A stretch of DNA of 64,000 bases from Fluviicola sp. (GTDB taxonomy: Bacteria; Bacteroidota; Bacteroidia; Flavobacteriales_D; Crocinitomicaceae): contig NZ_JBCNJT010000004.1 of assembly GCF_039596395.1 (NCBI RefSeq), positions 62,001 through 126,000 of the forward strand, read 5' to 3'. The notes below the pieces were generated by a model. The model did not search any database. It had not been told where the DNA came from and saw only the letters and a list, made by a program, of their open reading frames with translations. The translations under genes were made by a program, and so were the position numbers. Of the stretch, positions 51,261-62,928 are shown piece after piece (within the stretch, counting starts at the first letter, position 1; each line of letters starts with the position of its first letter).

Positions 51261-51292
51261 TTGCGCTCCTTGCTTCTTTGATAGTAAATTTG
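51261..51292 (+). promoter_or_regulatory. Predicted mutS promoter
   Basis: TTG at 51261-51263 is followed after 21 bases by TAAATTTG at 51285-51292, a perfect -7 consensus. Transcription would begin about 20 bases before the GTG start of mutS. The same spacing and layout occur at the tRNA-Gly promoter. Confidence 0.55.
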
Positions 51293-51316
51293 AGCCATTC
51301 CATAATTCATACCTGC

Positions 51317-53941
51317 GTGTCAAAAAAAGAAAAAGATCCGGCAGAAACGCCCTTAATGAAGCAATACAACGAGATTAAAGCAAAACATCCTCAGGCTTTG
51401 CTGCTTTTTCGCGTCGGGGATTTTTACGAGACTTTCGGGGAAGATGCGGTGACTGCATCCAAAACACTCGGAATTGTTCTTACCAAAAGAGGTGCAGGTT
51501 CGCCTTCCGAAATTGAATTAGCCGGATTTCCGCATCATTCGCTGGAATCTTACCTTCCGAAACTGGTACGTGCCGGTCACCGCGTGGCAATCTGCGACCA
51601 GCTGGAAGATCCCAAAATGACCAAAACGATCGTCAAACGCGGAGTTACCGAACTGGTCACTCCCGGAATTGCTTTCAGCGATAAGATCCTGGACGGCCAT
51701 CACAACAACTTCCTGGCTGCCATTCATTTCGGGAAGGACATTCACGGGATTTCTTTCCTGGATGTAACGACAGGGGAATTTTTCACCGCGCAGGGAAATA
51801 CCGAATACATCAATAAACTGATCCAGGGATTTGAACCCAGCGAGATCATTTACCAAAAAAATAAACACACCCTTTTCCAGGAACTCTTCGGAACCAAATA
51901 TTATACGTTCCGCTTAGACGATTGGGTTTTCACTGCCGATTTCGGGAAAGAAAAACTGACCGGGCATTTCCAGACCAATTCTATGAAAGGATTCGGTGTG
52001 GACGACCTGGAACAGGGAATTGTTGCTGCAGGCGCAATCCTTCATTACCTGGGAGAAACACAGCACGACAAACTGGGGCACATTACCCAGATCCAGCGCA
52101 TTGAAGAAGAAAAATTCGTGTGGCTGGACCGTTTCACCATTCGCAACCTGGAACTGATCTCTCCTTTGAACGAAGGCGGCAAAACCTTGTTTGACGTGGT
52201 AAACGGAACAAAAACCCCGATGGGCGACCGTTTGCTGAAACGCTGGATCGTGATGCCGCTGAAACACCCGGAGCAAATCAACGGGCGCATCGATGCGGTT
52301 GCAGATTTGGCGGAGAAAAGCAGCCTGCGGGCAGAAATCGAGCACGAACTGAGCGAAATCGGCGACATGGAACGCCTGATCTCCAAAGTTGCCGTGGGAA
52401 GAATTCACCCGAAAGAACTACGCGTGCTATCCCGCATCCTGGAACACATGACTCCGCTCAGGGATGCCTGCTCGCACAGCGAAAGCGAATTACTGAACCA
52501 GCTTTCGAAGCGTATCGAACCGTGTGAGGAATTTATCCAGTCGGTTGAAAAGTACCTGTTGAAAGATCCTGCCGTGATGCTGGGCAAAGGTCCGGTTATT
52601 GCAGACGGCGTGCACGCGGAATTGGACGAGTTGCGCGCGATTTCCGAAAGCGGAAAGGATTACCTGGAAGCCATGCAGGAACGCGAATCCGAAAAAACGG
52701 GAATTCCAAGCCTGAAAGTGGCTTTCAATAACGTATTCGGATACTACCTGGAAGTACGGAACACGCACAAGGACAAAGTTCCGGAAGAATGGATCCGCAA
52801 ACAGACGCTGGTAAGTGCCGAGCGTTACATCACGCCTGAACTCAAAGAATACGAAACCAAAATTTTGGGGGCGGAAGACAAGATCGCAACCATTGAAGCG
52901 CAATTGTATTTCGAACTTGTTCAGAAACTGAGTGCTTTCGTGGGTCAAATTCAGCGAAACGCTTACCTCATCGCCCAACTGGATTGCTTGACCGGTTTTG
53001 CCGAACTGGCTGTGAGAAAGAATTACGCGAAACCAACCGTGAACGACAGTTATGTGATCGATATCAAAAACGGGCGTCATCCGGTAATTGAAGGCCAGCT
53101 GAAACCGGGAGAAGAATACGTTCCGAATGACGTTTACCTGGATAAGGAAGAGCAGCAGATCATTATGATCACCGGTCCGAATATGTCGGGGAAAAGTGCC
53201 TTGCTGCGCCAAACGGCCCTGATCGTCCTGATGGCACAAATGGGAAGTTTTGTTCCGGCGGATGCGGCTATATTGGGAATTGTAGACAAAGTCTTCACGC
53301 GCGTCGGGGCTTCGGACAATATTTCTTCCGGGGAATCCACTTTCATGGTCGAAATGAACGAAACTTCGAGCATTTTGAACAACCTTTCGGACCGCAGTTT
53401 AATCCTGCTCGACGAAATCGGCCGCGGAACAAGTACCTACGACGGAATTTCCATTGCCTGGGCAATTGCCGAATACATCCATGAATTTCCGCAAGCCAAA
53501 GGAAAAACCTTGTTCGCAACCCATTACCACGAACTGAATGAAATGGCTGTTCAATTCCCGCGCATCCACAACTACAATGTGAGCGTAAAGGAAGTGGGAC
53601 AAAAGATCATCTTCTTACGCAAACTCGTGGAAGGCGGAAGCGAACACAGTTTCGGTATTCACGTTGCCAGGCTGGCCGGTATGCCGAATAAAGTCATTCA
53701 ACGGGCAGAACTGATGCTGGAACAACTCGAACTGAACCACCGCTCCGCCGAAGTGAAATCGGTAAAAGATGTGGTGGTACACGCCGGCAATTCTTCCGAC
53801 ATGCAATTGAGTTTCTTCCAGCTGAACGACCCGGTCCTGGAACAAATTCACGACCAATTGGTTTCGATCGACATCAATACCTTAACGCCGGTTGAAGCTT
53901 TGATGAAATTAAACGAAATCAAGAAGTTAACGGGCGGGTAA
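51317..53941 (+). CDS. mutS: DNA mismatch repair protein MutS
   Basis: The protein is 874 residues from a GTG ([20 protein letters not shown]); upstream codons are not conserved. The mismatch-binding motif is [17 protein letters not shown] (the FYE wedge), the Walker A is [15 protein letters not shown], and the Walker B and signature are [20 protein letters not shown]. It recognises mispairs and recruits MutL. The final codons (ending NEIKKLTGG) are repeated 8.5 kb downstream at 62480-62531. Confidence 0.96.
53890..53941 (+). repeat. mutS 3' end, left copy of a direct repeat
   Basis: The last 52 bases of mutS match 62480-62531 in the same orientation at 46 of 52 positions by my count, including 24 consecutive identical bases (53911-53934). 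The two copies bracket a set of accessory genes, as expected for an element inserted at the 3' end of mutS. Confidence 0.85.
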
Positions 53942-53991
53942 TTTTAATTTTTTATCCTGAGATGAATAAGCAGGGATATAAACAGTTACGA

Positions 53992-54204
53992 TCATTTTTC
54001 CATTAAACAAGCTGTATAGCCTCTGTTCTTCGCATCTTCTACAGTAGTTTTTTTAATTGTATGAGTGCATTTTTGAAGACCTCTGCATGATTGAGAGAAA
54101 TGATATTTCTTAGCATCTTTACTAAGACAGATATAAACAGTAGATTGAACAGAACCTGTAAAGCTGAACAGGATTACAGAGCTAATTAAGATCAGATTTT
54201 TCAT
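53992..54204 (-). CDS. Small Cys/His-rich secreted protein
   Basis: This 70-residue product has a signal peptide (MKNLILISSVILFSFTGSVQS) and a ~48-residue mature part with the pattern VYICLS..KKYHFSQSCRGLQKC, HTIKKTT and GYTACLMEK. Four cysteines and two histidines suggest a metal site or disulfides. Similar small proteins are known from phages and Bacteroidota without assigned function. It is the first gene after mutS, on the opposite strand. Confidence 0.75.
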   Translation of the reverse strand: MKNLILISSVILFSFTGSVQSTVYICLSKDAKKYHFSQSCRGLQKCTHTIKKTTVEDAKNRGYTACLMEK

Positions 54205-54273
54205 ATTGTAATTATTAAGTAAGATTTAAAACTTGCTAATTGCTCTATATGCAAAAGGGATTACTCTTTTTCG

Positions 54274-55170
54274 TTATTCGTATTTTCTCGAAATTTCGTA
54301 AACCGGGTAATTCCATTTGGCTACACCACCATGATATGAGCAGGCACCTTGTCCGGTTGCCTGGGAATAGGTACCGTCATTGCAAAGCGTGCAGTAATTG
54401 GCAATTCGTTTTTTCAGCGGATTAATCTTATCGTACAGTTTACCTGCATCGCTATGACCGAGAAGCATCGCTTTTTTTGCGTCTTTTACGGCTTCTTCTA
54501 TACGTTTGATTTTGACAAAACAATTTGCCCGTTGGTAAAGTACAAGGGTGTTACTGGTATCTAGTTCAAGCACGCTGGTAAGCAGATCAACGGCCATGTT
54601 GTACTGATGTTTTTTCATCAGCTGCTTTGTTTTGGCCAGAGAAACTTCTATCCGGATCAGGTTAACATCCGCCTTTTCCGCAGCTTTTTCCGCCATAAGA
54701 TCCGCTTTATCCAACTCCAGCAAAGCAAGATCGATTTCTCCTTTTCGGTACAGGCTGTCTACCCGTTGCAAACAACTATTCAGGTCATCAATGCGCTGTT
54801 TCTCATCCAACTTAGCTTGCCGCTCATTTAAGAGTTGAATCTTGTTGTTTTGTTCCAGCCTGGATCTTTCTTTCCCAAAAGCAATGGCAAATGGTACGTT
54901 TAGCAATAGTAAAGTAATCAGGACTATATTTCTCACCTTTTTTTTCAAGGGCCATTTAAATATGTGCGGGAGGATTAACGATAGACCTGAAACAACCAAT
55001 ACAATGGAAAAAGGCAGATAAATAACCGTAAAAGGGCTCATTATCAACAGCAATACTCCGATTGCTATATCTATCTCTCCCAATAATAGATAATTATTAA
55101 TGGTCTGTGTACCAGTGGACACATTCGTTTGCTTTAATGAGGGAGTGCCGCCCGAACCAGTATTCTGCAT
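54274..55170 (-). CDS. Membrane protein with N-terminal QTINN motif and DUF3761-like tail
   Basis: In this 298-residue protein the first ~28 residues are polar and contain VSTGTQTINNYLLLG. Hydrophobic segments follow (about 33-75 and 82-102: IAIGVLLLIMSPFTVIYLPF, IVLITLLLLNVPFAIAFG), then a coiled coil (about 105-135) and TPR-like helices (about 140-245). The C-terminal 45 residues, CTLCNDGTYSQATGQGACSY then HGGVAKW, resemble DUF3761. The QTINN motif matches the C-terminus of the upstream gene's product, 51 bases away. Function unknown; membrane-located. Confidence 0.75.
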   Translation of the reverse strand: MQNTGSGGTPSLKQTNVSTGTQTINNYLLLGEIDIAIGVLLLIMSPFTVIYLPFSIVLVVSGLSLILPHIFKWPLKKKVRNIVLITLLLLNVPFAIAFGKERSRLEQNNKIQLLNERQAKLDEKQRIDDLNSCLQRVDSLYRKGEIDLALLELDKADLMAEKAAEKADVNLIRIEVSLAKTKQLMKKHQYNMAVDLLTSVLELDTSNTLVLYQRANCFVKIKRIEEAVKDAKKAMLLGHSDAGKLYDKINPLKKRIANYCTLCNDGTYSQATGQGACSYHGGVAKWNYPVYEISRKYE

Positions 55171-55221
55171 TTTTCTGGATTTAATGATTATTTTGGGTAT
55201 TCTGGAGTTAATCCAGGAGAT

Positions 55222-56094
55222 TTAGTTGAAATGGTTATTGATCGTTTGATTTCCTCCCGTAACGAGATTATGGATCTCACCTCCCTCCATGTAGAACCCA
55301 ACCGGAGAATGGTTGAATTGCGGGCCACCGCTTCGCGCAGGTTGGTTCGTTTGATTCTGTAATTCCGATGCATCCTGTTTTAGGTAGTTTTCCAGGAATA
55401 ACAGCCCGGTCAATATTCCCGGAAGCCCTGCCGTAGATTGCGGTTGTTTCACAGAGGGAAGGAAAGGCGTGGCCGGATTCCATACATCATCGGTATCTAC
55501 CCATACCGGAAGGATTCGTTTTGTTCCCGAAAAATCTCCCCATGCCGGCTGGCGCATTTTTACGGCCTGGTCTTTCCATGATAAGGGAATAGCACAGATA
55601 ATCAAAGCCTTGTTTTCAAGTAATCCAATGGCGTGTTTGGCCAATTCCACCAGCGATGCCTCATTGGCAGCATATAGTTCAATCGGTGTCGTTTTTTGGA
55701 CAACTGTTAAGGTCGGAACCAGCTGTTTTTCCAGCTGCTGCGGAACAACAATCGTGAAAGGCTGTTTTTCCGGATTGTCAAAATGCTCAGTTTCGGGGGA
55801 AAGAAAATTTCCCGGTATGCGCAAGGCGGTTTTCCACGCATCCCAATTGTTGAACCCGGCATGGTTCAGCAACACGTTAATATTGGATTCAATTTTTTTG
55901 ATGGTGGAGCCTTCATTCACAGCTTTACGTGCATCAGTCATCAGATCTACAATGTAGCGATCGTTGAACTGTTGTTCCGGCGCCAGTTTGTTTGCAAGAT
56001 CGATTTGTCCGTTCTGAGACATTTCGGTGCGTTCCCTCCAGGAACAAAGCTGCACAAGTTGTATGATTTTATCCGGTTCGTAATGTTGAGCCAT
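55222..56094 (-). CDS. Conserved hypothetical protein with C-terminal QTINN motif
   Basis: In this 290-residue soluble protein an N-terminal helical domain (about 1-95) has LCSWRERTEMSQNGQIDLAN and NVLLNHAGFNNWDAWKTALR. An alpha/beta domain (about 105-250) has FTIVVPQQLEKQLVPTLTVV, ALIICAIPLSWKD and RILPVWVDTDDVWNPATPF, and could be TIR- or caspase-like in fold, but no catalytic residues are clear. A low-complexity linker leads to the last ~22 residues, GGEIHNLVTGGNQTINNHFN. That motif recurs at the N-terminus of the next gene's product, suggesting an interacting pair. Confidence 0.72.
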   Translation of the reverse strand: MAQHYEPDKIIQLVQLCSWRERTEMSQNGQIDLANKLAPEQQFNDRYIVDLMTDARKAVNEGSTIKKIESNINVLLNHAGFNNWDAWKTALRIPGNFLSPETEHFDNPEKQPFTIVVPQQLEKQLVPTLTVVQKTTPIELYAANEASLVELAKHAIGLLENKALIICAIPLSWKDQAVKMRQPAWGDFSGTKRILPVWVDTDDVWNPATPFLPSVKQPQSTAGLPGILTGLLFLENYLKQDASELQNQTNQPARSGGPQFNHSPVGFYMEGGEIHNLVTGGNQTINNHFN

Positions 56095-56207
56095 AAGTTA
56101 TAGTTTGGAATCAGGCTCTAAAGAGAACAAGGATCGAATCTGAAAATCAACTTAATTTTGTGAGGCCACCCTTTTTTTTTGTGTGAACCCGAAAATCTTT
56201 TAAGAGA

Positions 56208-56891
56208 TCAGATTGATTTCAGGTAAAGGGATACCTGTTCTTTGTATTTCGGTTCGATATCTATTTTTACACCGTTGGTCAGTTCAAGGCGATTCCCGAG
56301 TTTGCTTTTGACATACTGAAGATTGATAGCATGTGATTTGCTGACGCGCACTATACCGGGCCAATCGAGTTTTTGAAGAACAGCTTTCAGGTTGATCGTC
56401 AGTTTATACATTTTATCCTCCAGGTAAACACCGCAATAGCTTCCATCGGCTTCAATATAACAGATCGTATCGGGGTTGATCCGTTGTTTACCTTTATTTC
56501 CGTCTGTTATCAAATAGATTGTACGGGATAATTTCTGTGCCGGCAAATCTACATCCAGGGCGTTCCGCAAATTGATCAGATCAATCGGTTTCGCAAGATT
56601 GCGCAACGGAGTTGTATTTTTTGCCTGTATATACGTATTCATGTCCTGGATTCCGGAAAGATACATGTGCGGAATGTGCATTGCCGCCAGTTTTCCCCCC
56701 AGGTCAATTCCCGACCGTTCGCCTTTCAATCCGATATCGATAATTACCAGATCCGGGATCTCGCTTTCGATGGCTTTTACAGCACTGTTATAGTCTTCTG
56801 CTATTGCAATAACATGATGCTGAAGCTGTTCAAGTTTCCCGTGCAGGTCATCAGCAGCAAAAGGTTCGTCTTCAACTATCAAAATTTTCAT
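56208..56891 (-). CDS. LytTR-family response regulator (divergent from the TPR kinase)
   Basis: In this 227-residue protein the receiver has the acidic residues in LIVEDEPFAADDL, the phospho-acceptor in LVIIDIGLKG and the lysine in NLAKPIDL. The LytTR domain has TICYIEADGSYCGVYLEDKM and IVRVSKSHAINLQYVKSKLG. It is divergent from the TPR histidine kinase with a 38-base shared intergenic region, which strongly suggests they are partners. Confidence 0.9.
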   Translation of the reverse strand: MKILIVEDEPFAADDLHGKLEQLQHHVIAIAEDYNSAVKAIESEIPDLVIIDIGLKGERSGIDLGGKLAAMHIPHMYLSGIQDMNTYIQAKNTTPLRNLAKPIDLINLRNALDVDLPAQKLSRTIYLITDGNKGKQRINPDTICYIEADGSYCGVYLEDKMYKLTINLKAVLQKLDWPGIVRVSKSHAINLQYVKSKLGNRLELTNGVKIDIEPKYKEQVSLYLKSI

Positions 56892-56929
56892 GGGCGAAGT
56901 TTAATTACATTTGCCAAAATACTGAAATT

Positions 56930-58807
56930 ATGCTCCGCTACCTGCTCTTTTTATTTGTGCTCGTTTTGTCTACCGGAACTAATGGCCAGTCAAAGTTTCA
57001 CCGGTTACTGGACCAGGGCGGCCAATCCCTGCTGGATGGAGATATTCCACAAGCTAAAGTATTCCTGCAGCAAGCACTGAAGATCATCCCTGAGAAGCTT
57101 GATCCCGAAGAACGTTCTGTTTTTTACAATAATCTTGGAGTTGTTTATTATCAAACAGGCGAATACAAGCAATGCATCGATTGGTACCTGCAGGAGTTGG
57201 AAATATACAGAAAGGCAGGTAATGACAGCCTTGCAGCAGGAGCGCTGCACAATCTCGGACTCGTATATCACGAAATCGGGCTATCCAAAAAAGCTATGCA
57301 GGAATTACTTGGCTCAGCGCGGGATTTTGAACGGCTCGGTAACCAGAAAGAGCTTGCTTCGGCCTGGAATTCGATCGGGGTCATGCAGCTTGACCTCGGT
57401 AATTTCGAAAAGGCACTGACCTATCATGAACGGGCTCTTCGGATAAGAGAAAAAATAAGATACGCCAAGGGCATTGCGGATTCGTATAATAATATCGGAG
57501 ATGTTCACCTGGCATGGAAACACTACGCCAAAGCGGAAATCTATTTACAGGAAGCGCTTCGTCAGAAAAAAGGGCTCGATAATCAGTCGAATTTGATTAA
57601 CACCTTATGTTCACTGGGAAAATTATACATTGCTGTCGGAGAATCCAAAAAAGCATATAGCTACCTGCACGATGCCTATACGATTGGTAAAACCATCGGA
57701 AATTCACCAAAAGTAGCAGAGAGCATGTGCTACCTAGCGGCTTATTACAGCTCTCTGGGCGAAGAAAAAAAAGCCATGGAAATCTATCACCGGACACAGA
57801 CTATGGCGCGAACTTCTTCCGATTGGACCTTATTGCAGGATGCATTGCAAGGAGAAATAGCGCTGATCGAAAATAAAAGGCCCGGTGTCGAAGTTGTTGA
57901 GAAATATCGTGAATTGCTGGCCACAAAAGAAAAGGTAACCAAGGAACTCAACAGCAAGGAATTGGCAAGACTGGAAATCTCCTACGATGTGGAGCGAAAA
58001 AATGCCGAATTAAAACTCAGGAGAAAACAGGCAAAGATCGATCGGCTGAGCAATCAACGTCTAACCGGCTGGCTCGTGGCGGTTGGAGGAATAGCCCTAT
58101 TCGCAGGACTTGCATTTTACCAGACACAACGCCGGAAAAAACAAGAGGAAATACTCAGAAAACAAGCAGAAGACCTTCAAAGACAGGCCGAAATTCAACG
58201 GGACAAAATCAAACACCTGCACCAGGAATTGAGTCATCGCACAAAAAACTATTTCAGCATGCTCTCCGGCATTTTGAGATCTGACCGGAAGAAAGCATCG
58301 AATGAAGAAGTTATACGCGTTTTGGATATGAACATCCACCGATTGGAGGCAATGTCGAAGGTACAGGGCTATTTGCTTGTGAATTCAGAACAATGGGATA
58401 AGAATGTGCAACTGGATGCCTACCTCAATCATTTGATTTCCGAACTGCTGATGAACCTGTTGCCCGCAGAGAATGACCTGCAACTAGAAAAGGAACTGGA
58501 CAGCATTTTTATAGATTATGATAAGGCAATGCGGATTGCAATTGTGTTGAATGAATTGATTTGCAATGCCATTGAGCATGGTTTGGCAGGTGTAACAAAA
58601 CCTGTACTGGCCATTTCACTAAAAAGCCACGATAACAACGTCATACTGACAGTACAGGACAACGGCCCGGGTTTACCGGAAGAACTATTAAAATCAAAAA
58701 CGGTAAAAGGGCGTGACATCATCAGTAAGTTGCTTTCTTCGGTTAATGGAGTGGTTACTTACCACAATGAAAATGGGTGTAAGGCGGCGGTGACAATTGC
58801 GCTCTGA
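56930..58807 (+). CDS. TPR-containing sensor histidine kinase (HisKA_2 type)
   Basis: In this 625-residue protein a signal segment (MLRYLLFLFVLVLSTGTNGQ) is followed by about six to seven TPR repeats (about 25-330). A transmembrane helix (WLVAVGGIALFAGLAFYQ, near 380-398), a coiled coil, a HisKA_2 dimerisation domain with the phospho-acceptor in HQELSHRTKNYFSMLSGI, and an ATPase domain with VLNELICNAIEHGLAG and VQDNGPGLPEE follow. The TPR part is probably periplasmic. Two LytTR regulators flank it. Confidence 0.93.
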   Translation: MLRYLLFLFVLVLSTGTNGQSKFHRLLDQGGQSLLDGDIPQAKVFLQQALKIIPEKLDPEERSVFYNNLGVVYYQTGEYKQCIDWYLQELEIYRKAGNDSLAAGALHNLGLVYHEIGLSKKAMQELLGSARDFERLGNQKELASAWNSIGVMQLDLGNFEKALTYHERALRIREKIRYAKGIADSYNNIGDVHLAWKHYAKAEIYLQEALRQKKGLDNQSNLINTLCSLGKLYIAVGESKKAYSYLHDAYTIGKTIGNSPKVAESMCYLAAYYSSLGEEKKAMEIYHRTQTMARTSSDWTLLQDALQGEIALIENKRPGVEVVEKYRELLATKEKVTKELNSKELARLEISYDVERKNAELKLRRKQAKIDRLSNQRLTGWLVAVGGIALFAGLAFYQTQRRKKQEEILRKQAEDLQRQAEIQRDKIKHLHQELSHRTKNYFSMLSGILRSDRKKASNEEVIRVLDMNIHRLEAMSKVQGYLLVNSEQWDKNVQLDAYLNHLISELLMNLLPAENDLQLEKELDSIFIDYDKAMRIAIVLNELICNAIEHGLAGVTKPVLAISLKSHDNNVILTVQDNGPGLPEELLKSKTVKGRDIISKLLSSVNGVVTYHNENGCKAAVTIAL

Positions 58808-58811
58808 TAAA

Positions 58812-58853
58812 AAAGCCCGGGATCCCGATCATTTTCGGAACTCCCGGACTTTT
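58812..58853. terminator. Two-way terminator after the TPR kinase
   Basis: AAAAGCCCGGGA at 58812-58823 pairs with TCCCGGACTTTT at 58842-58853 with one mismatch. A- and T-runs on the outside make it symmetrical. It lies between the kinase gene and the converging lipoprotein gene, and would serve both. Confidence 0.8.
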
Positions 58854-58870
58854 CCTGTGTTAATCCTTAT

Positions 58871-59269
58871 TTAATCTACCAGGACTGTTACCTGTACATC
58901 GTCGTGTACATGGACGGTGTCCGTTACGAGCGGTTCTCCACCCGGGGCAGTTACGCGGAAGTAATAAATCCCGGACGCAACTTCGCGGTCGTATTCGCCC
59001 GACGAATTGGTGTAACCGTGATTAATCTGCTGGTTGGTACCGTATTCGTAGGTCTCAACACCAGCACTATCAACGGCTACCAGCGTGTATTTCTTTTTCA
59101 CCCTCACACGAATGATCGGGTCGTGGTCTCCTCCCGTTTTTTCAGGATCATTTTCTACAATGATTTGAGCTTTTCGGCTTTTTACCTCTTCTTTTTTACA
59201 CGATACTGTTAGCGCTCCCATTCCCACAAGAATCAACAGGGAAGCGATCATGAACTTATTTGTTTTCAT
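58871..59269 (-). CDS. Small lipoprotein
   Basis: This 132-residue protein has a lipoprotein signal (MKTNKFMIASLLILVGMGAL, then TVSCKKEE) with Cys in TVSC. The mature part ends in a beta-sandwich-like segment similar to carboxypeptidase-regulatory or CNA-B type domains: YEYGTNQQINHGYTNSSGEY, YYFRVTAPGGEPLVTDTVHV. It probably faces the periplasm. No function is known. Confidence 0.75.
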   Translation of the reverse strand: MKTNKFMIASLLILVGMGALTVSCKKEEVKSRKAQIIVENDPEKTGGDHDPIIRVRVKKKYTLVAVDSAGVETYEYGTNQQINHGYTNSSGEYDREVASGIYYFRVTAPGGEPLVTDTVHVHDDVQVTVLVD

Positions 59270-59712
59270 GCTAATTTGCTTTTAAACTGTTTTTAACTTG
59301 TTGTGAAGCCTGCCCGCCACTGGCGGATGCCGCACAACGATTCTGTTGGGAGAATATGCCTGCTCTGCTGTCGCCTCTTCTCCCGAAAGGGAAAGCATTG
59401 CAGGCATTTGTCAGAAGCTGGTCCGGGTTCCGGGGCCCGGTAGTGCACCTGTCTTCCTTTAGCTATCGGGAAGCGTTACCGGCGACTGACAGGACAAAGG
59501 TTGGTAAACAGCCGGGAGAAATCGTAGGACAGAAAAAAACTATGTCGAACCGATTTGTGAAATATGCAAGTAATTGATTTTCAAGAGGTTTAATTTTGAG
59601 TTTTTTTTGACCGGTATCCACTTTTTTATAACCGCAATGGAATCATTCGAAAAGCGAATGACATGTGTGAACCGATTTTCGCTATTTTCGTACGGAAGGA
59701 TAAAAGCTCGGC
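59270..59712. other. 443-base intergenic stretch with a GC-rich structured segment
   Basis: No gene is supported here. The middle (about 59311-59520) is much richer in G+C than its surroundings and full of complementary segments: CCGCC/GGCGG (59314-59326), GGGAGAA/TTCTCCC (59348-59354, 59378-59384) interleaved with ATGCCTGC/GCAGGCAT (59356-59363, 59400-59407), CCGGG/CCCGG (59423-59440) and CCTGTC/GACAGG (59448-59453, 59488-59493). A structured RNA or a decayed repeat cluster are both possible. The last ~180 bases look like an ordinary A+T-rich promoter region. Confidence 0.5.
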
Positions 59713-60414
59713 ATGAAAATTTTAATTGTGGAAGATGAGCCTTTCGCTGCGGAAGAACTACAGGAAAAGCTGGAGAAGCTAGAGAAGCCCGTTGTTGAGG
59801 TAACGGGCATTGCCGAAAGCTATGAAGAAGCGCTGGAATTGATTCGCCGCAATAAACCACAACTCGTGTTGGTGGACATCGAACTCAAAGGAGAACTGAC
59901 AGGGATTGACTTATCGGAGGAATTGCAAAAACAGGGAATTCCCTTCCTGTATCTTACTGGCCTGGAAGAACTTGACGTTTATTATAAAGCCGAGAAAACC
60001 GGTTCTTTAAAATTCCTGTCAAAACCCATCGACCGTTACAATCTTCGTAACGCACTATTGGAAGCAGAAAAAGCAATTACCGATGAAAAGAAAGAAACGC
60101 TGCGTTTTTTTACAGTAAAAGCCGGTATACGAAAATCGCTTCATCCCGATCAGGTCGCTTACTTGAAAGGTGGCCGTTCCTATTGCGAAATCCATTTTAT
60201 GGATCGATCTAAATGGGACATCTCGTTGAATCTTGGGAAGGTCGCCGAGCAAATAGATCATCCCGACTTCATTCGTATTCACAAGTCTTTCTTCGTCAAT
60301 AAAAAGCATATTGAGCATATTGCCGCAAATTCGGTTCGACTCACCACGGGAATCGATTTAAACATCTCGCTTACCTATAAAAGGGAAGTGAAGCGAATGA
60401 CGGAAAGACCCTAA
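59713..60414 (+). CDS. LytTR-family response regulator (second of the locus)
   Basis: This 233-residue protein is closely similar in layout to the regulator at 56208-56891: LIVEDEPFAAEELQEKLEKL, phospho-acceptor in LVLVDIELKGELTGIDLSEE, lysine in FLSKPIDRYNLRNALLEAEK, and a LytTR domain with QVAYLKGGRSYCEIHFMDRS and IRIHKSFFVNKKHIEHIAAN. It is probably a paralogue produced by duplication and may share the TPR kinase. It is transcribed alone. Confidence 0.92.
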   Translation: MKILIVEDEPFAAEELQEKLEKLEKPVVEVTGIAESYEEALELIRRNKPQLVLVDIELKGELTGIDLSEELQKQGIPFLYLTGLEELDVYYKAEKTGSLKFLSKPIDRYNLRNALLEAEKAITDEKKETLRFFTVKAGIRKSLHPDQVAYLKGGRSYCEIHFMDRSKWDISLNLGKVAEQIDHPDFIRIHKSFFVNKKHIEHIAANSVRLTTGIDLNISLTYKREVKRMTERP

Positions 60415-60554
60415 CCGATTCAATCGAACTTAGTCCCTGTTTTTTTTACTCCTATCAGTACTATTTCTTCATTTCGGAAATTGGAATTGCCGTTTGGGAA
60501 AGAATTTGTTGTGAGCATGTTTTTAGTTGGTGATGTTTGTTGAAAATTAAAAAC

Positions 60555-60779
60555 ATGGAGCGTTATAGAAATTTATCTGGAAATTCAGGAGTTTCCGGTT
60601 ATGAAATCGGTACTGATTATATCAGAGTTGCATTTAACGGAAATCCCAAAATCTATTCATATTCGAATCGAGGAAGGGCAGGTAGAGTTCATGTTGACAA
60701 TATGAAAAGATGTGCTGTAAATGGCTTAGGACTAAACTCCTATATCAACGAGCACGTAAAATACTTGTATGATTTATAA
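60555..60779 (+). CDS. KTSC-like small protein
   Basis: This is a 74-residue protein starting MERYRNLSGNSGVSGYEIGT; six codons upstream in the same frame are not needed. It resembles KTSC-type small domains: a short beta-meander with TDYIRVAFNGNPKIYSYSNR followed by a helix with GLGLNSYINEHVKYL. Such proteins are common in bacteria and in mobile elements; function unknown. It precedes kwaA by 43 bases. Confidence 0.7.
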   Translation: MERYRNLSGNSGVSGYEIGTDYIRVAFNGNPKIYSYSNRGRAGRVHVDNMKRCAVNGLGLNSYINEHVKYLYDL

Positions 60780-60822
60780 TCGATACTCTAAGTAAGCATT
60801 AACAACGTTGGAGATCTCATAG

Positions 60823-61386
60823 ATGAAACCTAAAATATTCACTGCGATACTTTTGTTTTTTAGCGCATACTCACCACTCTTCATCATTTTGGCAGTGAAA
60901 GATTTCGATTTTAATCAAACATTTTCTTTCAAGCATAAAGAAGCTATTTCTTGTTTATTGGGAATTTCTACGCTAAGTCTTGTATTATTGTTTTTTACAG
61001 TATCTGCTATCAGACCAGGTAATATGTCTGTAAGAATTTTAGAGATAAAGAACAGATCTTCGGATTTAATTAATTACACAATCCCATACATAGTGTCCTT
61101 TTTTGGATTCGATTTATCCAAAATTGAAGACGTTATATCTCTCTCAATATTCCTTTTTTTAATGCTATTTCTAACCATTAAAAGCAAATCAGTCTTTATA
61201 AATCCAATTTTACTGATTGCCGGATACAACTTGTACGATTTGGAATATGAGTTTGACCAAAAAAGAGCTTCAACCATAATAATCAGTAAACACGAAATGA
61301 AAATCGGGGAAAATTATTACTTAAGGAGCTTAACACGCTTCTTATATTTTGTAACAGAAAAAGACAACTCTGAAGATGACAAATAA
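60823..61386 (+). CDS. kwaA: Kiwa system membrane protein KwaA
   Basis: In this 187-residue membrane protein with four hydrophobic segments (AILLFFSAYSPLFIILAV, LLGISTLSLVLLFFTVSAI, INYTIPYIVSFFGF and SLSIFLFLMLFLTI), a conserved-looking INPILLIAGYNLYDLEYEF lies after the last one. Identification rests on this topology and on the KwaB gene, which starts inside it with an 11-base overlap. In Kiwa the membrane protein senses phage attack at the membrane. The gene is markedly A+T-rich compared with the housekeeping genes. Confidence 0.82.
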   Translation: MKPKIFTAILLFFSAYSPLFIILAVKDFDFNQTFSFKHKEAISCLLGISTLSLVLLFFTVSAIRPGNMSVRILEIKNRSSDLINYTIPYIVSFFGFDLSKIEDVISLSIFLFLMLFLTIKSKSVFINPILLIAGYNLYDLEYEFDQKRASTIIISKHEMKIGENYYLRSLTRFLYFVTEKDNSEDDK

Positions 61387-62323
61387 AGAATTATTAAAAG
61401 ATCTTAAAGGCTTAAATTATGATAATGCTAATGTTTCTTTAGCCATTGTTAAGGAGTATAAACGCGATCGTATATCACATTATGATGTGAAATATGTCCC
61501 AATCGATAAAAAACTGGAAAAACGACTTAGAACTGTCGTAGTAACTCACGTATCAAAGGCAAGAAGTGTTGATGATTATACTTATGATTGTCCTGAGCCA
61601 GAGGAAGATTTTGTCCGCTCAATTAAATACGAAGAAACAGATTTTTACAAAATCTTTGAGAAGCTAAAAGAATTAAATCCTGAAGAGGACATTATTGAAA
61701 ATGTTGAGGAATTAGTAAAAGCCAAGGCTTACATGATCGTAATTAGAAATCGTGCAGGTATCCGATTAGTTGGATTTCGTACGTTACCTGAAAATTGGAA
61801 GATGAAAAAATCAAAGGGATTAATTAATCTTCTTTTTAAAGAAAATCGTTTTGAAGATTTACAAGAAGAAAATGTATTTAGCATTGCTCATAATATTGAT
61901 ATTCTTTATTTCAACGAAATGTTATTTATACTTTCAAAAAAAGGGTTTGAGAATGGGCTGAACTTTCGTGAAGGAATGATTAATAACGCGGTTAAGTTGT
62001 ATGAAGAGTTTACTACTTTGAAATTATTTATAAATCTAGAACTTCTTCAGACAAAAGTTGGAAATAATCAACGGCAACTTCGAAAAATTGCAACCATTCG
62101 AAACTTGGGTCATTTCAGAGATTCCAATTTTTTATTGAAGTTACGACAGATAAACAAAAAAAAGGGTTGGAAAATTGAATTTGAAAATGAACAAATAATA
62201 ATTTCAGAAGACACATGGGAGGATATTCTGACACTCTTGCAAAACAAAAGGCTTTATTCTGAATTAACGGATCAGGACTTTGATGTCGATAGCGTAAAAC
62301 CATTGACTCTACCTCGAAGTTAG
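61376..62323 (+). CDS. kwaB: Kiwa system protein KwaB (DUF4868)
   Basis: This 315-residue cytoplasmic protein has the size of known KwaB and the DUF4868 pattern: KAYMIVIRNRAGIRLVGFRT, SIAHNIDILYFNEMLFILSK, KGFENGLNFREGMINNAVK and the C-terminal WEDILTLLQNKRLYSELTDQ. KwaB works with KwaA against phage, probably by acting on replicating DNA. It shares ATGACAAATAA with the kwaA stop, a coupled junction. Low G+C suggests horizontal acquisition. Confidence 0.88.
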   Translation: MTNKELLKDLKGLNYDNANVSLAIVKEYKRDRISHYDVKYVPIDKKLEKRLRTVVVTHVSKARSVDDYTYDCPEPEEDFVRSIKYEETDFYKIFEKLKELNPEEDIIENVEELVKAKAYMIVIRNRAGIRLVGFRTLPENWKMKKSKGLINLLFKENRFEDLQEENVFSIAHNIDILYFNEMLFILSKKGFENGLNFREGMINNAVKLYEEFTTLKLFINLELLQTKVGNNQRQLRKIATIRNLGHFRDSNFLLKLRQINKKKGWKIEFENEQIIISEDTWEDILTLLQNKRLYSELTDQDFDVDSVKPLTLPRS

Positions 62324-62388
62324 CATGATACCATCTTTGATCATTTAACAACTAACCCAATCATTATTCCCTTACCGTCCTCAATCTG

Positions 62389-62427
62389 AAAAAGCGGTTG
62401 TAGAAATTTACTTCACAACCGCTTTTT
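62389..62427 (+). terminator. Terminator of the Kiwa operon
   Basis: AAAAAGCGGTTGT at 62389-62401 pairs perfectly with ACAACCGCTTTTT at 62415-62427 around a 13-base loop; the 3' arm ends in a T-run. It follows the kwaB stop by 66 bases. Confidence 0.88.
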
Positions 62428-62479
62428 GTATTTTGAAATGGGTTCTACTGCTTCATGACCGAAAAAGATAAATCACTCT

Positions 62480-62531
62480 GGTTGAAGCCTGGATAAAATC
62501 AAACGAAATCAAGAAGTTAACGGGAGGTTAA
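62480..62531 (+). repeat. Diverged copy of the mutS 3' end (remnant)
   Basis: In the mutS frame these bases read [16 protein letters not shown] and stop, against [16 protein letters not shown] at the end of mutS; the match ends upstream at 62469-62471, where the frame has a stop. It is a fragment and not a gene. It marks the right-hand boundary of the putative island, just ahead of the tRNA genes. Confidence 0.85.
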
Positions 62532-62595
62532 TCGCCGCTTCATCCCGGAGACATGCAGTGAAATCGAAAAAAAATGAAAAAAAGTGCTGCAAACC

Positions 62596-62664: not shown

Positions 62665-62737
<73 letters not shown>

Positions 62738-62740
62738 CTA

Positions 62741-62817: not shown

Positions 62818-62901
62818 GCTCGAATGGTGGAATTGGTAGACACGCCGGACTTAAAATCCTGTGACCATCTGGTCGTGCGGGTTCAAGTCCCGCTTCGAGT
62901 A
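62818..62901 (+). tRNA. tRNA-Leu (UAA anticodon)
   Basis: This is an 84-base tRNA with a long variable arm. Acceptor GCTCGAA pairs with TTCGAGT (one G-U pair) with discriminator A; the D-arm contains GGTAGACACGCC. The anticodon stem has CGGAC-TTAAAAT-CCTG with TAA in the loop, and the T-arm is GCGGGTTCAAGTCCCGC. CCA is not encoded. It probably needs its own promoter or read-through, because a hairpin precedes it. Confidence 0.95.
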
Positions 62902-62928
62902 CAGTGAGCGCTTCCAGCTCATGAGATT

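Follow-up and report, generated by a model that had tools for sequence, protein, structure and literature searches.

Gene content of the region downstream of mutS

The window analysed here is a stretch of 64,000 nucleotides from a Fluviicola genome. In it, mutS is followed by a block of 8.5 kb with ten open reading frames (chosen from a mechanical ORF list), a second copy of the mutS 3' end and two tRNA genes. Pfam and PADLOC recognise in the block two LytTR response regulators, a TPR histidine kinase, KwaA and KwaB. The features are the following (positions in the window, strand, description):

51278..53941, +, mutS, intact; 887 aa if read from the listed TTG; its end is repeat copy 1
53885..53942, +, repeat copy 1, the mutS 3' end in use
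53992..54204, -, orf70, secreted-looking protein of 70 aa; no Pfam family at E<=0.001
54274..55170, -, 298-aa protein; weak TPR and DUF3761 matches, both below the Pfam cut-offs
55222..56094, -, o290, adaptor-like protein of 290 aa; no Pfam family
56208..56891, -, response regulator (a), receiver and LytTR domains (Pfam)
56930..58807, +, TPR histidine kinase, HisKA_2/HATPase_c (Pfam)
58871..59269, -, lipoprotein-like protein of 132 aa; weak CarboxypepD_reg match
59713..60414, +, response regulator (b), receiver and LytTR domains (Pfam)
60537..60779, +, small protein from the listed TTG start, with an ATG at 60555; no Pfam family; possibly KTSC-like
60823..61386, +, kwaA (Kiwa); PADLOC KwaA E 9.7e-53, NCBIfam KwaA 65.4 bits, below the cut-off of 100
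61376..62323, +, kwaB (Kiwa); Pfam KwaB 106.6 bits (cut-off 26.3), PADLOC E 2.9e-102
62389..62427, +, hairpin and T run after kwaB, terminator-like by eye
62475..62532, +, repeat copy 2, the earlier, resident 3' end of mutS, detached from the remainder of the gene
62665..62738, +, tRNA-Gly (gcc)
62818..62902, +, tRNA-Leu (taa)

The sequence-only reading of this DNA had described ten accessory genes including an anti-phage system, and the profile searches agree with it. As in the Kiwa anti-phage system, homologues of kwaA and kwaB are adjacent (Pfam, PADLOC), with scores that lie below the NCBIfam equivalog cut-offs (for KwaB, 42.1 bits against 200); this operon probably adds a predicted phage defence to the block. 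Response regulators (a) and (b) are 38% identical, and the starts of their genes form an inverted repeat of 86 nt that flanks the kinase gene.

The G+C content is 30-31% in the Kiwa genes and 43-47% in the two-component genes, the latter close to the 42.9 +/- 2.4% of the upstream 1-kb windows. Given this contrast, the block looks composite, and it probably combines a TPR-kinase/LytTR/adaptor module of local base composition with an AT-rich Kiwa operon; the AT-rich part may also have been inserted later and on its own. As DNA, the block was found at the mutS site in none of 13 congeners, and no congener matches it as a whole. Short pieces of the kinase and regulator genes match DNA of G003, G011, G004 and G005 at other places, and the kinase, regulator and lipoprotein genes are clustered in the first three of these genomes. 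Relatives of orf70 occur in G011 (38%) and in G112 (58%), in the latter beside Kiwa. A protein search with KwaB in 240 genomes of the family found at least four, two of them weak, a count that is a lower bound because the search missed a Kiwa pair in G003 that PADLOC recognises.

The 3' end of mutS is duplicated in direct orientation

It had been claimed from the sequence that the end of mutS recurs downstream in the same orientation, and both the recurrence and the protein ends read as claimed. Positions 53885-53942, which include the mutS stop codon, and 62475-62532 form a direct repeat of 58 nt on the same strand, with 50 identical positions (86%) and a long identical core; copy 2 carries, as copy 1 does, a translatable mutS tail ending in a stop. 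Beyond the ends of the repeat, on either side, no convincing similarity between the copies was detected.

The last 75 nt of each mutS were aligned locally to as much as 15 kb of the DNA that follows the gene, in 178 of 180 mutS loci; two with less than 60 bp downstream were left out, and at least 8.7 kb were present in 125 of the 178. These loci comprise a family set and a wider set, the latter being the best 80 of at least 593, and the two sets share at least one genome. The window scored 74, the next best locus 35, and the best score in the reversed-DNA control was 36; at the protein level the corresponding values were 65 for the window, 41 for the second best and 40 for the best control. 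The locus with score 35 (L143) was considered as a second repeat and discarded, since the similarity, which lies in an AraC-like gene of a Flavobacterium, is due to chance. A survey of other Bacteroidota genomes for duplicated mutS ends had been proposed; among the other 177 loci, with up to 15 kb of downstream DNA, no second mutS tail appeared. At E <= 5e-5, a 66-base query from the mutS end against the own genome and 13 congeners returned mutS genes, copy 2 and nothing else; at this threshold it misses mutS itself in G004, G006 and G009, so that diverged tail copies could escape it in these genomes. A match of 26/36 to the mutS end is present in G006 at L038:3841-3876, 85 bp past mutS in an enlarged spacer; it may be a decayed scar or a chance match, and other-strand matches at unrelated loci reach 27/36.

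We consider it very improbable that an assembly artefact or chance similarity lies behind the repeat, considering the score of 74 against a reversed-control maximum of 36 and the location of the window inside a 408-kb contig (G000:C4:62001-126000) of a 5-contig genome; the native position of copy 2, described below, also contradicts it.

The empty site in relatives and the native position of copy 2

The uninterrupted order mutS, tRNA-Gly(gcc), tRNA-Leu(taa) is found in 7 of 14 Fluviicola genomes, the own genome counted among the 14 and G002, G004, G009 and G010 being left unclassified as empty or occupied. The seven (G001, G005, G006, G007, G008, G011 and G012) are all other species of the genus, and their gap between mutS and tRNA-Gly(gcc) measures 129-531 bp; the expectation that an empty site would show mutS followed by the tRNA-Gly region was borne out. 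A tRNA-Gly insertion in G002 was also considered and turned out to be a scaffold gap (an N run) after a repeated tRNA start. An ORF of this genome that looks like a C-terminal recombinase (L033:8140-8910) has no Pfam family, and after the N run contig C217 (L033) carries ABC-three-component defence genes (MC5, CTD9).

The gene order was also followed in the 169 of 178 loci that were usable (at least 500 bp downstream, or a tRNA-Gly seen). Of the usable loci, 54 of 96 in the family and 39 of 73 in the wider set (again the best 80 of at least 593) have a tRNA-Gly no more than 1 kb from mutS; at 10 family loci, the window included, the distance is 1-13 kb. At 66 of the 169 loci (32 of the family, 34 of the wider set) tRNA-Gly(gcc) is absent from the stretch examined, and these were assigned neither as empty nor as occupied. 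The order mutS - tRNA-Gly(gcc) - tRNA-Leu(taa) is therefore widespread and conserved in many Bacteroidota. The tRNA genes do lie beyond the right boundary of the block (62665-62738 and 62818-62902), as had been pointed out; their closeness is ancestral synteny and has no part in the insertion.

The relatives also tell the two copies apart. A conserved A-rich block precedes tRNA-Gly, and the stop codon of copy 2 lies 29 nt from it; the distance from the mutS stop to this block is likewise 29 nt in G002, G007 and G008, and 28 nt in G001 and G012. Neither the DNA after copy 1 nor G006 showed this pattern. From copy 2 to tRNA-Gly there are 133 nt, inside the range of the relatives. Since copy 2 stands at the native distance from the A-rich block, it is the resident mutS end, and copy 1 is the end that the gene now uses. 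All five changes private to copy 2 fall in the first 26 of the 58 positions (positions 5-26) and the last 32 are free of them, a clustering with a chance of 0.014 under uniform drift in a test chosen post hoc; this is more easily explained by a crossover in the identical core than by a stump that simply decays.

Other occupied intervals

In nine other family loci, 1.1-13 kb of genes separate mutS from tRNA-Gly; their cargo includes a fucosidase, a desaturase, two-component genes, PPK2, Ppx/GppA, SusC/SusD-like genes and others. These intervals hold no copy of the mutS tail and, by Pfam, no recombinase among 28 ORFs of at least 80 aa. The mutS-tRNA-Gly interval gains genes in several lineages, and among the loci scanned the scar is in the window alone. 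Among the ten proteins of the block Pfam likewise recognised no recombinase. The genome has four Phage_integrase matches, the sole recombinase family searched genome-wide, and none is near the block.

Insertions beside mutS have been described in other phyla. The mutS-associated island GI8c of Burkholderia pseudomallei MSHR305 is presented as a putative prophage with a 15-bp repeat (PMC2612704), and prophages are reported in the mutS-cinA interval of Pseudomonas fluorescens (PMC2647930). The window resembles the first in having an island at mutS with a direct repeat and the second in that the interval beside mutS is a repeated place of insertion. As far as these accounts describe the islands, there are also differences: the repeat in the window is of 58 bp and encloses a defence and regulatory block with no recognised recombinase, and where P. 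fluorescens carries phage-tail elements, the mutS-tRNA-Gly interval of the window has no recognised phage genes. With these precedents mutS, which had been called unusual as a site, is not new in this role, at least on what the two reports relate; in the open-licence literature we found no case from Bacteroidota.

Origin of the insertion

The repeat, the empty sites of the relatives, the native position of copy 2 and the intact mutS are direct observations. The insertion is real. It has the look of a single, fairly ordinary event, and not that of a mobile element of a new type. We infer its route, and the most likely one, in our view at somewhat better than an even chance, is that incoming DNA with a mutS tail underwent general recombination. 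The ancestral layout would have been mutS, a spacer of ~130 bp, tRNA-Gly and tRNA-Leu. The 8.5-kb block would have entered within the last ~19 codons of mutS. The old gene end would have been left beside the tRNAs, a stump that no longer codes (copy 2), and a mutS tail carried on the incoming DNA would have supplied the gene with a functional end (copy 1). A RecA crossover in mutS together with an illegitimate joint on the other side, or a single crossover with a circle, could produce this arrangement, in an interval that would repeatedly gain genes without integrases. Such a route requires neither a recombinase nor a second user of the site nor a counterpart of the core in viral DNA. Hotspots poor in integrases, as characterised in PMC5635113, agree with such an account, and they share with the window accessory genes between conserved genes and no recognised recombinase; in contrast, exchange between matching flanks at a hotspot should leave no duplicated gene end, and the window retains one. 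A donor mosaic in mutS was looked for and dismissed, the identity to congeners in 150-nt bins being without a break.

This unbroken identity, which gives no sign of donor DNA in mutS, and the clustered changes of copy 2 speak against general recombination. A direct repeat at both ends reaching up to the stop codon, with the target gene restored, is also the product of an integrase. The mutS 3' end may have served as attB for an element with an integrase; copies 1 and 2 would then be attL and attR, and the integrase would have been lost later or have acted in trans. The intact mutS, the identical core, the clustering of the changes of copy 2 upstream of that core, the empty site in seven of the 14 Fluviicola genomes (other species) and the Burkholderia and Pseudomonas islands, as reported in PMC2612704 and PMC2647930, are all in keeping with this. 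We still regard it as rather unlikely: the ten proteins of the block include no recombinase that Pfam recognises, the four genomic Phage_integrase matches are all distant, the same att site is seen in 0 of 177 other loci (downstream DNA up to 15 kb), and for an exact 20-mer of the core IMG/VR gave no match and phage records none that convinces (best E 0.6). With no recognised recombinase in the block or in the nine other occupied loci, and no tail copies in the latter, an integrase specific for mutS is unsupported, and so is a recurrent attachment site in mutS, for which 178 loci gave no second case. What had been proposed as an element entering at the mutS 3' end thus stands as an insertion with an empty site and one resident copy; that the element was mobile and had mutS for its site is not supported, as neither a recombinase was recognised in the block nor a second user among the loci scanned.

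Another sequence of events, less probable still, would have the mutS end duplicated first, as a short tandem repeat, and genes accumulating later and stepwise between its copies. The composite base composition of the block and the gain of genes without repeats at this interval in other lineages would suit such a history, against which a duplicate without the block occurs in none of the 178 loci. General recombination remains our preferred route. The locus records, clearly and datably, how accessory DNA with predicted defence genes can become established beside a conserved core gene when no recombinase is recognised, the previous mutS end persisting as a fossil.

The o290 module

The cargo around o290 is a more novel lead than the mutS scar. 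Relatives of o290 were found in 6 other of 240 genomes of the family, and a search of 399 genomes of the order gave six matches, its own included, with none outside the family. A TPR kinase gene and a LytTR gene precede the o290 relative in 6/6 loci; the gene that follows it encodes a product of ~880 aa in five loci (49-59% identical to the first of the set) and of 503 aa in G003. For o290 and the ~880-aa partner there was no convincing match in Pfam, PADLOC or PDB sequences and no recognised Bell or NLR domain, and a single-sequence fold of o290 was unusable (mean pLDDT 33).

The C-terminus of o290 (..VTGGNQTINNH..) and the N-terminus of the neighbouring 298-aa protein (..VSTGTQTINNY..) share the motif QTINN. 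In the homologous modules of G021, G098, G093 and G099 the shared motifs are longer, and in G003 there is none. Out of 2000 shuffles, the observed score was reached by 1 for the window, 0 for each of these four, 46 for G155 and 1243 for G003. In bacterial amyloid signalling pairs (BASS), as outlined in PMC8086366, one protein ends with a motif with which the product of the adjacent gene begins, and the o290 pair would resemble them in its similar short motif; it differs from the pairs presented there in that it has no recognised Bell or NLR domain and stands in one gene order with a two-component system. On the strength of these motifs, o290 and its neighbour (54274-56094) are a possible amyloid-signalling pair under a two-component system. 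We suggest, tentatively and with more doubt than confidence, that the left half of the block may be an undescribed, rare immune-type module of the family, in which the TPR kinase and the LytTR regulator would control o290, and o290 would signal by an amyloid-like motif to an exchangeable partner (~880 aa in five relatives, the 298-aa TPR/DUF3761-like protein here). If true, a two-component system with an amyloid pair would tie sensory kinases to signalling so far described for NLR-type systems. In G003 (L209:8559-19000) the kinase/LytTR/o290 module lies ~5 kb from a second, diverged Kiwa pair, and in the window it is likewise near Kiwa.
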